A stretch of DNA of 64,000 nt from Pseudodesulfovibrio sp. JC047 (lineage in GTDB: Bacteria > Desulfobacterota > Desulfovibrionia > Desulfovibrionales > Desulfovibrionaceae): NCBI RefSeq assembly GCF_010468615.1, contig NZ_WUEH01000007.1, forward strand, positions 1 through 64,000, in the 5' to 3' direction. This document shows, in pieces, positions 4,262 through 51,440 of this stretch (within the stretch, counting starts at the first letter, position 1; the number at the start of each line of letters is the position of its first letter). A program made the translations under genes and the position numbers. Under the pieces are notes generated by a model. The model made no database searches, was not told where the DNA came from, and saw nothing but the letters and a program-made list of their open reading frames with translations.

Positions 4262-5569
4262 ATGGCATCTTATACCACGCAGATGGACGCTGCCCGAAAA
4301 GGCATCGTCACTCCCCAGATGGAAACCGTCGCTCGCAAAGAGAATATCCGTATCGAAGATCTCATGGAGCGCATGGCCCGAGGAACTGTCATTATTCCTG
4401 CCAACAAGAATCACACCAGCCTCGATGCCGAAGCCGTTGGCGAAGGAATGCGTATCAAGGTCAACGTCAACCTCGGAATTTCAAAGGATTGCAAAGAAGT
4501 AGATCCTGAGCTGGAAAAAGTTCAGGCCGCTTTGGATCTGAAGGCCGAGGCCATCATGGATTTGTCCTGTTACGGCAAGACGCAGGAATTCCGTCAGAAA
4601 TTGGTCAAGATGTCTCCTGCCATGGTCGGAACCGTCCCCATCTATGATGCGGTTGGTTTTTACGACAAAAATTTGCAGGACATCACGGTGGATGAATTTT
4701 TTGATGTGGTGAAACGCCATGTCGAAGATGGTGTTGATTTCTTGACCATCCATTGTGGACTCAACAAGCACACTGCTGAAAAGGTCAAGAATGCGAAGCG
4801 GTTGACAAATATCGTTTCACGTGGCGGCTCCCTGTTGTTCTCCTGGATGGAAATCAACAATGCCGAGAATCCTTTTTACGAGCATTTCGATCGGTTGCTC
4901 GACATCTGCGAAGAGTATGACGTGACGCTGAGTCTTGGTGACGGCTGCCGTCCCGGGTGTCTGCGTGACTCCACGGATGCCTGTCAGGTCGAGGAGCTTA
5001 TCACGTTGGGTGAGCTGACCAAACGCGCCTGGGAGCGTAATGTTCAGGTCATGATCGAAGGTCCTGGGCACATGGCCATGGGCGAGATCGCCGGAAACAT
5101 GATGATGGAAAAACGGTTGTGTCACGGCGCGCCTTTCTATGTGCTCGGTCCCATCGTGACCGATGTCGCGCCCGGTTACGACCACATCACCTCCGCCATT
5201 GGTGGTGCTATTGCCGGTATGTCTGGAGCCGATTTCCTGTGTTATGTCACCCCGGGTGAACATTTGCGGTTGCCGACCCTCGAAGACATGAAGGAAGGCA
5301 TCATCGCAACCCGTCTTGCCGCCCATGCTGCCGACATCGCCAAAGGATATCCCAATGCCCGTGATTGGGATGACAAGATGTCCAAGGCCCGTGCCGATCT
5401 CGATTGGGAAGCCATGTTCAATTTGGCCATGGACCCGGTTCGTCCTCGCGAATTCCGCGAAGCCTCCAAGCCCGAACACGAAGATTCCTGTTCCATGTGT
5501 GGCAAAATGTGCGCTGTGAGAAATATGAATCGCGTCCTCGAAGGCAAAGATATCCAACTAGATGACTAA
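4262..5569 (+). CDS. thiC: Phosphomethylpyrimidine synthase ThiC (short form)
   Basis: A 435-residue non-canonical radical SAM enzyme that rearranges aminoimidazole ribotide into HMP phosphate. Active-site blocks include [20 protein letters not shown] (about residues 44-63), [29 protein letters not shown] and the [21 protein letters not shown] region. The C-terminal cluster motif reads CSMCGKMC, giving CX2CX3C, one residue tighter than the CX2CX4C (CSMCGPKFC) of long ThiC proteins. The protein lacks the long N-terminal extension of E. coli ThiC. The short form is related to BzaF, which makes hydroxybenzimidazole from the same substrate, but placement in a riboswitch-controlled thi operon favours ThiC. 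A strong terminator follows. Confidence 0.92.
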
Positions 5570-5639: not shown

Positions 5640-6030
5640 CTACCAGCCCTGCCGGGGGCCGCCTTCAGCGAGACCAGGACGCTGTCCTGGACCTGCCAGA
5701 GGCCCCTTTGAAAAGGGGCCTCTGGACTCCCCGAAACTTTTTATCGCTCGCTTCGCTCGAAGCTGTCGGCAGCATTTGTTTTTGCGATTTTTGGAGGAAC
5801 GTTGTAAAAAAATACATTTTTTACAGACTTTTTTGAAAAGTCTTAAAAGAAATATTTTTTGCAAGGATTTCTTGATTTTTTAATTACCCCTTCTTTCTTC
5901 ACACTTCTTCTTCAATCCAACTTAATCAATGTCGTGGGACCTCGCCGAAGGCGCGCTAAAAAGTTCTGGAAGGGAGTCCAGAGGGGAACCTCTTCCAAGA
6001 GGTTCCCCTCTGGTCGCCGAAGGCATTCCC
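5640..6030 (-). repeat. Interspersed hairpin repeat, copy 1 (modules A-linker-B)
   Basis: A roughly 390-base element filling the whole space between the convergent thiC and methyltransferase-like genes. Module A has GGACGCTGTCC, then the palindrome CCAGAGGCCCCTTT / AAGGGGCCTCTGG, then ACTCCCCGAAACTTTTT and CGCTCGCTTCGCTCG. An AT-rich linker follows, with TTTTTTACAGACTTTTTTGA. Module B (inverted) has GCCGAAGGCGCG, AAAAAGTTCTGGAAGGGAGT and the palindrome CCAGAGGGGAACCTCTT / AAGAGGTTCCCCTCTGG. The same arrangement recurs at 50.9 kb, and inverted at 13.6 and 45.9 kb. Confidence 0.9.
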
Positions 6031-9460: not shown

Positions 9461-9500
9461 CCAAAAGAAAAGCGGTTTCACCTTTTCGATGAAACCGCTG
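9461..9500 (-). terminator. Terminator of initiator tRNA copy 1
   Basis: On the minus strand CAGCGGTTTCATCG pairs with the GTGAAACCGCT arm, followed by TTTCTTTTGG. It lies nine bases beyond the encoded CCA of the tRNA. Confidence 0.8.
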
Positions 9501-9508
9501 AGTATCCT

Positions 9509-9585
<77 letters not shown>

Positions 9586-9600
9586 ACACGTGAGAAAGAC

Positions 9601-9629
9601 GTTCTAGGTTGATCAAGATCTTTTGTCAA
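9601..9629 (-). promoter_or_regulatory. Sigma70 promoter of initiator tRNA copy 1
   Basis: Minus strand TTGACA (9624-9629), a 17-base spacer and TAGAAC (9601-9606), about 16 bases upstream of the mature tRNA 5' end. The same pair with the same spacing is found before copies 2 and 3. Confidence 0.85.
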
Positions 9630-9635
9630 CACATT

Positions 9636-9674
9636 AAAAAGAAAAACGGTCACATCTGTTCGATGTAACCGTTT
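9636..9674 (-). terminator. Terminator of initiator tRNA copy 2
   Basis: Minus strand stem AACGGTTACATCG / AGATGTGACCGTT followed by TTTTCTTTTT, nine bases beyond the CCA of copy 2 and just upstream of the copy 1 promoter. Confidence 0.85.
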
Positions 9675-9682
9675 GATTTCTT

Positions 9683-9759
<77 letters not shown>

Positions 9760-9774
9760 ACACGTGAGAAAGAC

Positions 9775-9803
9775 GTTCTAGGTTGATCGAGATTGTTTGT
9801 CAA
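9775..9803 (-). promoter_or_regulatory. Sigma70 promoter of initiator tRNA copy 2
   Basis: Minus strand TTGACA (9798-9803), 17-base spacer, TAGAAC (9775-9780). Confidence 0.85.
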
Positions 9804-9809
9804 CATATA

Positions 9810-9850
9810 AAAATAAAAAATGGTTACACCGTTTGCCGATGTAACCATTT
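9810..9850 (-). terminator. Terminator of initiator tRNA copy 3
   Basis: Minus strand stem AAATGGTTACATCGG / GGTGTAACCATTT followed by TTTATTTTTA, nine bases past the CCA of copy 3. Confidence 0.85.
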
Positions 9851-9858
9851 GATATCTT

Positions 9859-9935
<77 letters not shown>

Positions 9936-9950
9936 ACATGTGAGAAAGAC

Positions 9951-9979
9951 GTTCTAGGAGTGTGCAGTGGTTTTGTCAA
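9951..9979 (-). promoter_or_regulatory. Sigma70 promoter of initiator tRNA copy 3
   Basis: Minus strand TTGACA (9974-9979), 17-base spacer, TAGAAC (9951-9956). The spacer bases differ from those before copies 1 and 2, while both boxes and their distance are kept. Confidence 0.85.
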
Positions 9980-10095
9980 CATCTATTCCTGCAAAATATG
10001 AAAAAAAGGGGAGGACAAGGCGAATCGGCCTTTTAATCATGAAAAACACAGCAAAAAGTTTACAACCGGCGGCGAATTCCGTACATCATCACCCT

Positions 10096-13612: not shown

Positions 13613-14201
13613 GTGAATGCCTTCGGCGACTGGGGGAAAGGGAGAGACAAACCCTTAGAAAAGGGCTTTTTCTCTCCCTTTCCCCCAGACCCCCTATCTC
13701 TCTCTTTTCCTAAACTTTTTATGTGCCTTCGGCAGATGTGTACGTCCGCGTGATGGCACGGCTGTCGTCTGGGGTATGGGATGTGGGATGCCTCCGGCGG
13801 CCAGAGGGGAACCTCTTGAAAGAGGTTCCCCTCTGGACTCCCTTCCAGAACTTTTTGTCGCGCCTTCGGCGAGGCTTCACGACATTCATTGAGTGGGATT
13901 GAAGAAGGAGGAGGGATATGAAAGAGGGGATGGGTAAAGAAATAAGAAAGAAGAGGGGGAGAGTTACAGACTCAAGAGCCCCTTGCAGAAGATGTATTTT
14001 TCAAAATTCTTCAAAAAAGTCTGTAAAAAATGCAATTTTTTACAACGTCCTCCCAAGAGCCGCACGAACTCACGCTGCCGACAGCTTCGAGCGAAGCGAG
14101 CGACAAAAAGTTTCGGGGAGTCCAAAGGCCCCTTTTCAAAGGGGCCTTTGGCAGGTCCAGGACAGCGTCCTGGTCTCACCGAAGGTGACCCCGGTAGGGG
14201 G
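13613..14201 (+). repeat. Interspersed hairpin repeat, copy 2 (modules C-B-linker-A)
   Basis: A roughly 590-base element occupying the whole gap between convergent genes. Module C (13619-13737): CTGGGGGAAAGGGAGAG and its inverse CTCTCCCTTTCCCCCAG around an inner hairpin, then ACTTTTTATGTGCCTTCGGCA. Module B (13790-13875): palindrome CCAGAGGGGAACCTCTT / AAGAGGTTCCCCTCTGG, then ACTCCCTTCCAGAACTTTTT and GCGCCTTCGGCG. Linker with TTTTTTACAACG. Module A (about 14061-14198) inverted: CGAGCGAAGCGAGCG, the palindrome CCAAAGGCCCCTTT / AAAGGGGCCTTTGG and GGACAGCGTCC. It ends one base before the next stop codon. Confidence 0.92.
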
Positions 14202-45913: not shown

Positions 45914-46285
45914 AATGCCTCCGGCGGCCAGAGGGAAACCTCTTGGAAGAGGTTTCCCTCTGGACTCCCTTCCAGAACTTTTTGTCGCGCCTTTGGCGAG
46001 GTTTCACGACATTCGTTGAGTGGGATTAAAGACAGTAGAGTTATAAAAGAAGGGATAGTTAAAGAAGTAAGATGGTTTTGCAAAAAGACTATGTTTGAAA
46101 TTCTTTTCAGAGAGTTTGTAAAAAAAACAATTTTTTATAACGTCCTTCAAAGAGCCGCACGAACTCACGCTGCCGACAGCCCTCGCGAAGCGACCCAAAA
46201 AGTTTTGGAGGGTCCAGGGAACCTTTTTCAAAAGGTTCCCTGGTCGTCGAAGACGCCACCCCGGCGAGGGGCCACCGGAGGTCTC
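45914..46285 (+). repeat. Interspersed hairpin repeat, copy 3 (modules B-linker-A)
   Basis: Same orientation as copy 2 but without module C. Module B carries CCAGAGGGAAACCTCTT / AAGAGGTTTCCCTCTGG, where a G-to-A change on one arm is matched by C-to-T on the other. It continues ACTCCCTTCCAGAACTTTTT and GCGCCTTTGGCG. The linker has TTTTTTATAACG, and module A has a 14-base stem CCAGGGAACCTTTT / AAAAGGTTCCCTGG with CCTCGCGAAGCGA. This copy is the only one not between convergent genes: it sits between frdB and a downstream plus-strand small gene. Confidence 0.88.
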
Positions 46286-50778: not shown

Positions 50779-50859
50779 TTTGTTTTCGTTAGTTGAAATA
50801 CAGAGCTGATTGTGGCGCATCATGTCTCGGCATGGTGCGCCTTTTTCGTGTGAAGGTGT

Positions 50860-51440
50860 GCCCTACCGGGGGGCGCTTTCAGCGGGACCAGCCCTACCGG
50901 GGGTCGCTTTCAGCGGGACCAGGACGCTGTCCTGGACCTGCCAGAGACCCTTTTGAAAAAGGTTCTCTGGACTCTTCAAAACTTTTTGGGTCGCTTCGCG
51001 AGGGCTGTCGGCAGCGTGGGGGCGTGTGGCTCTTGGAAGGATATTGTAAAGAAATGTTTTTTTACAGACTTATTTGAGAAGTCTTACAAGAGACATTTTT
51101 AGTACAGGCCTTTTATTTCGTTATTTATCTGGGCTTTTATCTTTCTCTTCTTCAATCCCACTCAAACGATGTCGTGGGGCCTCGCCGGAGGCGCGATAAA
51201 AAGTTCTGGAGGGGAGTCCAGAGGGGAACCTCTTCCAAGAGGTTCCCCTCTGGCCGTCGGAGACATTCCACATCCCATACCCCGCACGACAGCCGTGTCC
51301 CCACGCGGACGCGCACACCTGCCGAAGGCACATAAAAAGTTTGGGAAAAGAGAGAGATAGGGGGTCTGGGGGAAAGGGAGAGAAAGAACCCTTTTTAAAG
51401 GGGGTTTCTCTCCCTTTCCCCCAGCTGCCGGAGGCAATGC
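50860..51440 (-). repeat. Interspersed hairpin repeat, copy 4 (modules A-linker-B-C)
   Basis: Same orientation as copy 1 but with module C attached. At its left edge CCCTACCGGGGG plus CGCTTTCAGCGGGACCAG occurs twice in a row (a 31-base near-perfect direct duplication). Module A stem: CCAGAGACCCTTTT / AAAAAGGTTCTCTGG with one mismatch; linker with TTTTTTTACAGAC; module B palindrome CCAGAGGGGAACCTCTT / AAGAGGTTCCCCTCTGG; module C (51318-51440) with AGTTTGGGAAAAGAGAG and the GGGGGAAAGGGAGA / TCTCCCTTTCCCCC stem. It fills the gap between two convergent operons. Confidence 0.9.

Follow-up and report, generated by a model that had tools for sequence, protein, structure and literature searches.

A dispersed gene-end repeat of Pseudodesulfovibrio whose modules may carry a third strand and a U-run

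Why does a bacterial genome carry the same long, modular palindromes at several places between its genes, and what might they do there? The window analysed here, a stretch of 64,000 nucleotides from Pseudodesulfovibrio sp. JC047, holds four copies of such a repeat, at 5640-6030, 13613-14201, 45914-46285 and 50860-51440. These are the loci named in an original prediction made from the letters alone, and our reading agrees with it on the make-up of the copies (modules A and B in copies 1 and 3, with module C in addition in copies 2 and 4) and on their orientation, which is one way in copies 1 and 4 (B+ A- and B+ A- C-) and the opposite way in copies 2 and 3 (C+ A+ B- and A+ B-). The common plan that it described, a palindrome followed by ACTCCC or a variant, AACTTTTT and a short second hairpin, is correct in sequence, and the sequences of the copies bear out its view of one architecture shared by three modules that differ in sequence. 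These may, as it proposed, descend from a single unit that was duplicated and then diverged. As it also stated, no transposase lies inside; no gene of transposase size is seen within the copies. Three features were absent from that description: the parallel match between linker and hairpin arm, the facing of opposite modules, and the location between convergent genes.

Each module consists of a long hairpin, then a pyrimidine-rich linker and then AACTTTTT. The linker reads as the parallel complement of the purine arm of the hairpin, with C on G and T on A and both strands running 5' to 3' (85 instances read). The parts of the four copies, together with a neighbouring terminator, are as follows.

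5696..5742, plus strand: module B of copy 1 (hairpin 5696-5725, linker 5726-5734, AACTTTTT 5735-5742)
5958..6013, minus strand: module A of copy 1 (hairpin 5978-6013, linker 5966-5977, AACTTTTT 5958-5965), facing module B
13630..13720, plus strand: module C of copy 2 (hairpin 13630-13688, linker 13689-13712, AACTTTTT 13713-13720); parallel match to the purine arm at 16 of 19 purines
13801..13856, plus strand: module A of copy 2 (hairpin 13801-13836, linker 13837-13848, AACTTTTT 13849-13856); parallel match at 6 of 9 purines
13857..14104, no strand: spacer of copy 2, bounded by the T-runs with which modules A and B face each other, partly common to the copies in its own genome
14105..14151, minus strand: module B of copy 2 (hairpin 14122-14151, linker 14113-14121, AACTTTTT 14105-14112), facing C and A; parallel match weak, at 3 of 5 purines
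45928..45983, plus strand: module A of copy 3
46197..46243, minus strand: module B of copy 3, facing module A
50814..50846, plus strand: plain hairpin with T-run, by eye an ordinary intrinsic terminator, retained beside copy 4
50941..50987, plus strand: module B of copy 4
51198..51253, minus strand: module A of copy 4, facing module B
51334..51424, minus strand: module C of copy 4 (hairpin, 24-nt linker with a parallel match at 16 of 18 purines, AACTTTTT)

All copies sit between convergent genes, copy 3 less surely, as the gene on its right was called with a weak score. By Pfam the genes beside copies 1, 2 and 4 are ordinary. Copy 1 has ThiC on its left and, on its right, a gene without a Pfam match; copy 2 lies between genes for a glycosyltransferase and for an epimerase-like protein, and copy 4 between those for a pyridine nucleotide-disulphide oxidoreductase and for an ABC transporter ATPase. 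The plus-strand gene run that ends in ThiC (4262-5569) has a TPP riboswitch upstream, at 682-787. Elsewhere in the window, 9463-9986 holds three tandem 174-nt repeats, each with a minus-strand tRNA gene, the second 87% and the third 77% identical to the first.

The repeat extends far beyond the window. Copy 2 has 137 match pieces in its own genome, and the best of them after the query itself (E = 2e-230 and 1.5e-176) are far above chance; judging from these matches, the composite of this species has clearly multiplied within the genome. At C3:75408-75883 of the same genome, module A forms a tandem array with a period of 120 bp, apparently by local amplification. In blastn-type searches the repeat is found in all 25 genomes of the same genus, in some cases weakly (best E about 1e-5), and in 0 of 16 genomes from other genera of the order.

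The modules share with intrinsic terminators a stable, G+C-rich hairpin, and class C folds are very stable, at -48 to -59 kcal/mol (six folds, with 40 nt downstream included). The U-tract does not follow directly (0-2 nt) after the stem: linker length has modes at about 8, 12-14 and 22-24 nt, and the T-run mostly lies 8-24 nt past the stem, as seen by a detector limited to 6-32 nt. By loose patterns, a CTCCGG-type mini-hairpin motif precedes 124 of 156 modules and a UUCG-type or similar one follows 117 of 156. AACTTTTT is exact in 144 of the 156; the T-run was partly a search condition here, since the detector required A[AG]CTTT at that place, and detection was mechanical, so that spurious matches are retained in the counts. 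Among class C matches found without any T-run condition, namely the 30 pattern matches with enough downstream sequence among 33 with a purine arm, ACTTT occurs within 35 nt in 21 and is absent in nine, of which three read GCGCTTT and one AAGCTTTTT.

The linker is what sets the modules apart. In relatives, the arms GGGAGAG, GGGGAGG, GGGGAGAGGG, GAGGAAAGGG and GGGGAAGAGGGG go with the linkers CCCTCTC, CCCCTCC, CCCCTCTCCC, CTCCTTTCCC and CCCCTTCTCCCC, respectively, so that arm and linker change together. Over all 175 mechanical matches, the parallel score averages 6.37 as against 3.06 with the linker reversed. Composition alone was considered as the cause and rejected, as shuffled linkers reach 2.33 (maximum 2.67 in 200) and linkers swapped among equal lengths 4.72 (maximum 5.15 in 200). 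The covariation is strong in class C, for which 63 matches from 12 genomes were picked by arm and linker length, giving 55 distinct pairs: the expected parallel partner stands on 875 of 1054 arm purines, compared with 610 of 1028 when the linker is reversed. With every linker, real or swapped, aligned at its first CCC, the class C mean of 12.65 compares with 7.83 for linkers swapped among all (sd 0.38, maximum of 2000 swaps 9.18) and with 9.24 for swaps within species (sd 0.51, maximum of 2000 swaps 10.85). An origin of the linker as a direct repeat, by slippage, or as a Watson-Crick complement was rejected for class C by scoring the reversed linker, which tests both (3.49 versus 12.65).

A second selection grades the three classes. 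Class C (62 pairs) scores 11.87, or 4.58 reversed, and none of 2000 swaps reaches the observed value; class A (25 pairs) scores 4.80, or 3.20 reversed, with the observed value reached by 4 of 2000; and class B (20 pairs) scores 1.80, or 1.65 reversed, with 31 of 2000. The case thus rests on class C, with class A adding modest support and class B hardly any. For class B, these scores give no ground for rejecting slippage or a Watson-Crick origin. Among other intergenic hairpins of four genomes, 0 of 448 score 8 or more, and their mean is -5.02 against -5.43 reversed. A point against the reading comes from the same scan, which was stricter about hairpins and tolerated a single mismatch in the stem: the 62 hairpins that precede the motif averaged 1.92 there (1.29 reversed), and only 4 of the 62 scored at least 8 (1 of 62 reversed). 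These low scores probably come from class C stems cut short by mismatches. Outside the genus, 43 mechanical matches average 7.47 against 4.65 reversed; this sample took 30 of 80 loci of one pattern search and 15 of 30 of another, omitted Sphingomonadaceae, Pseudodesulfovibrio-like and other loci by hand, and retains chance hairpins among the 43. Two Bilophila modules that no search pattern had selected have the parallel partner on 15 of 16 purines in one case and on 15 of 17 in the other; in the Clostridia modules the count is 11 or 12 of 16.

What kind of pairing could leave such a trace? Folded parallel triplexes, as in H-DNA mirror repeats, have the plan 5'-Pu-loop-Py-Py-3', and position-by-position coevolution of an arm with a parallel tail is the trace expected from selection for a triple helix. 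From these sequence patterns we infer that a triplex, of RNA or of DNA, would form and would end or protect transcripts. In class C, an arm G faces C 565 times, T 58 times, A three times and G never, and an arm A faces T 311, C 68, A 62 and G two times. The 62 of 443 arm A positions that face A count against the canonical parallel motif, in which A on A is non-canonical; on the other strand they give T.A:T, which is canonical in the antiparallel purine motif. Because these positions fit the purine motif of the opposite strand, the covariation is compatible with RNA and with DNA, and with either strand. The main chemical objection to a parallel triplex is that parallel C-on-G triads need protonated cytosine, which is unfavourable in G runs at neutral pH.

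Linker length is coupled to the hairpin as well. It tracks arm length (Spearman 0.74 over 118 distinct combinations), the difference between arm and linker is 5 in 92 of 196, and in class C an arm of 27 goes with a linker of 22 in 23 of 32 cases, 28 with 23 in 16 of 18, and 29 with 24 in 7 of 10. As a consequence of this coupling, the T-run starts close to where a third strand would arrive at the stem tip. The RNA-DNA hybrid inside RNA polymerase is about as long as AAACUUUUU, so that AAACUUUUU after the third strand would give a geometry like that of an intrinsic terminator if the third strand is counted as part of the stem.

Based on these features, we propose, at about an even chance of being right, that the repeat consists of paired gene-end devices in which transcripts coming from either side are ended or protected by the hairpin, a putative third strand and the U-run. 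The long hairpin would fold in the transcript or in the same DNA strand, and the tail would then run along its purine arm as a parallel third strand, beginning at the stem base and ending close to the tip, with AACTTTTT starting where the third strand ends. By analogy with an intrinsic terminator, zipping of the third strand would stand in for closure of the terminator hairpin, and transcription would either end on the U-run or yield a 3' end that the triplex shields. Two facing modules would serve both convergent genes, making the element roughly a bidirectional terminator and able to replace one. Counting against this mechanism, class B scores hardly above its own reversed linker and class A only modestly so.

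A different use of the linker, as a rut-like site that is C-rich and G-poor and loads Rho after the hairpin, seems highly improbable. Linkers are indeed C-rich, and in minimum-energy folds they are wholly unpaired in 31 of 61 modules and on average 19% paired; Rho loading, however, needs neither the position-by-position tracking of the arm nor the coupling of lengths.

The placement of modules fits gene 3' ends rather than promoters, with one exception described below. Among gaps of at least 60 bp, 18 of 157 convergent, 24 of 509 tandem and 3 of 184 divergent ones are occupied (convergent versus the rest, Fisher p = 5e-4), in a 1.66 Mb sample of four genomes that was given in-house gene calls and yielded 65 module matches including spurious ones, where a false small gene at 46004-46150 inside copy 3 made one convergent gap of the window count as convergent plus tandem. 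Six of the 65 matches fall inside called genes. The constant sense orientation of modules in convergent gaps was dropped as evidence, being true by construction; in tandem gaps, single modules are sense in 15 of 22 (p = 0.13, non-significant). No plain terminator lies ahead of the module at 21 of 24 gene ends, compared with 190 of 278 module-free ends (p = 0.06). Neighbouring modules within 450 bp form 28 facing pairs, one back-to-back pair, which includes a doubtful match, and 15 pairs in the same direction, all from the own genome; this set was drawn mostly from loci similar to copy 2. Restricted to the contiguous sample, the count is eight gaps with both orientations, of which seven are purely facing and one has a doubtful extra match.

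The same gap preference could suit a role in the DNA itself. The 3' arm and the linker together form a homopyrimidine mirror repeat, which under supercoiling might adopt H-DNA or a cruciform; the third strand would most likely be the purine strand. Lying between convergent genes, such a structure might absorb supercoils as a sink or form a roadblock, and the T-run would then be incidental. We regard this as unlikely. In its favour, the mirror symmetry of arm and linker is that of H-DNA, the A-facing-A positions, read on the opposite strand, would become T.A:T triads of the antiparallel purine motif, a motif that does without acid pH, and modules favour convergent gaps. It leaves unexplained why the distance to the T-run, which is present in 21 of 30 class C matches found without asking for it, tracks stem length, and why the third strands of classes A and B are short; the homopurine-homopyrimidine mirror repeat is clear in class C and weak in A and B.

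Orthologous sites in relatives link the element to terminators. The gap at copy 2 was compared across 27 loci (the own genome and 26 relatives) from 29 genomes searched. In the own genome it measures 596 bp and holds the element, while in nine of the 26 relatives (G024, G084, G021, G012, G239, G007, G017, G006 and G020) the same convergent pair is separated by 38-89 bp with a G+C hairpin, whose T-run has at least four T in seven of the nine, three in G017 and two in G007. The gap is 9 bp in G103 and 215 bp with a plain hairpin in G010; about 1.0-1.25 kb lies between the genes in nine relatives, and a neighbour is missing in six. At the copy-4 site, for which 28 loci were read by eye, the own genome has a plain terminator as well as the element, G024 and G084 have an apparent decayed C module, and G103, G007 and G010 have a plain hairpin with T-run; 0.5-1.2 kb lies between the genes in seventeen loci, and a neighbour is missing in five. 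By these comparisons, elements come and go at terminator positions. In five relatives without the element at the copy-4 site (L367-L371, from G001, G018, G239, G002 and G022), a response-regulator-like gene seems by eye to lie between the flanks.

Three loci depart from simple termination. In Bilophila L196 and L258 the module stands, by eye, right after a probable stop codon and a plain terminator comes next, which implies that a module need not be the terminator; in Clostridia L190, the exception among gene-end locations, it lies antisense between tandem genes, just upstream of promoter-like sequence (by eye). All three are easier to reconcile with protection of the 3' end, with fail-safe termination or with insulation than with simple termination. 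The modules might then be stabilisers rather than terminators, with a triplex-protected RNA 3' end that blocks exonucleases, and both the Bilophila arrangement and the very stable class C folds speak for this. We consider it quite unlikely as the whole explanation, since at the copy-2 site the element occupies the place of the plain hairpin of relatives.

Could the repeat simply be selfish? The original description as a non-autonomous or structural element was incomplete, as it left out that the copies lie at gene ends, that modules face each other in pairs and that a parallel tail follows the hairpin. Mobility may still play a part, given the multiplication of the composite in its own species and the repeat with apparent inverted ends that carries the module in a Clostridia MAG. 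A REP/BIME- or MITE-like repeat that is tolerated in 3' regions and has no role of its own would account for the amplification of a highly similar composite and the module A array in the own genome, for relatives having sites without the element, and for a MITE-like form in a Clostridia MAG; according to the available part of PMC3733652, REPs elsewhere likewise favour convergent and unidirectional gaps. We nevertheless judge it very unlikely, because spread alone predicts no parallel tracking of a module's own arm by its linker, because the GTAG/CGTC tags that define REPs in that part of PMC3733652 occur in 0 of 156 modules within 8 nt before the hairpin, and because PF01797 (RAYT and IS200 not told apart) is limited to 10 of 25 same-genus genomes, the own one included, whereas the repeat is in all 25. 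Mobilisation by IS200/RAYT was set aside, as copy 2 is unlike six Y1 transposase loci (one in the own genome, five in relatives); nor was the IS-derived MITE found that would have spoken against the original prediction. By eye, the ends of the window copies show no terminal inverted repeats, and relatives are too diverged for target duplications to be read.

How does the element compare with known systems? In line with the original remark that no named family matches, no Rfam family reaches its gathering score in the window or at the four loci. Bidirectional intrinsic (Rho-independent) terminators are similar in their G+C-rich hairpin, T-run, position at gene 3' ends and convergent gaps, with a plain hairpin found instead at one site of relatives; they differ in that their T-run follows the stem directly, whereas the module's lies mostly 8-24 nt beyond, its tail covaries in parallel with the 5' arm, and it belongs to a dispersed repeat with facing modules and a spacer. 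H-DNA and folded triplexes have the same homopurine arm, homopyrimidine arm and parallel third strand directly after the hairpin; unlike them, the module is a covarying, multi-copy bacterial gene-end element, mostly with a T-run, and is known here from sequence alone. ENE/MALAT1-type triple helices protect RNA 3' ends mainly by U.A-U triples with an A-rich tail. They too have a third strand lying against a hairpin close to the 3' end of an RNA, a strand that in the module is putative, but the module would place a C/U-rich tail on a G/A-rich arm, and in bacteria. BOX elements of Streptococcus are likewise modular composite repeats with a varying module set, and we know of no third-strand match in them. 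REP/BIME elements, within the available text of PMC3733652, are likewise multi-copy extragenic palindromes in convergent and tandem gaps; the modules differ by the lack of tags beside the hairpin, the lack of a consistent Y1 transposase, and the added third-strand linker and T-run. In parts of two other papers, D. desulfuricans is listed with the genomes that depend heavily on intrinsic termination (PMC1852404), and mirror repeats are placed at normal levels in most phyla (PMC4060949).

Titles and opening abstracts of the open-licence literature yielded no description of triplex-built bacterial terminators or gene-end repeats, and no recognised account of such a repeat or terminator in Desulfovibrio or Pseudodesulfovibrio. 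New here is the parallel (mirror) complementarity of the linker to the purine arm, and possibly a new bacterial gene-end signal. More tentatively, somewhat short of what we would call probable, the modules may represent a new class of gene-end element that terminates transcripts, or shields their 3' ends, by means of a triplex. Its third strand, covarying with the arm, would zip along the hairpin and deliver the U-run; the class would occur in many genera of Desulfovibrionaceae and patchily in Clostridia and could replace ordinary bidirectional terminators. With its many copies in many species, the repeat supplies natural variants for a direct test of triple helices in bacterial termination or RNA 3'-end protection.

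The class C pattern with a T-run occurs in 41 of 297 genomes drawn from the class and in 11 of 53 genera, all within Desulfovibrionaceae; read backwards, the pattern has 0 hits among the matches listed. The 21-base class C pattern, which fixes part of the linker and so biases its matches, finds at least 119 stretches, with the purine arm upstream in 33 and absent in 47 of the 80 loci listed. A 27-base module A pattern gave no matches in the contig scan. The Clostridia MAG RGIG6788 has 23 pattern copies, and the exact class C pattern is absent from 59 other searched relatives of this MAG, whose module loci hold YlxM-like, Ffh, ScpA and ScpB genes that, we presume, fit a Firmicutes assignment. 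Its module lies inside a repeat of about 300 bp with apparent inverted ends, clear at L232, partial at L218 and L243 and with one end at L190; this is possibly a MITE that carries the module. Matches in Sphingomonadaceae lack the hairpin and were set aside by eye as unrelated. At these loci (L199-L201, L203, L208, L209, L211 and others), a strongly conserved CCCCGGACCCCCATCCC is followed by cggcggtta.. with no matching hairpin upstream, and Sphingomonas sp. IC081 carries several copies of that CCCCGGACCCCCATCCC repeat.
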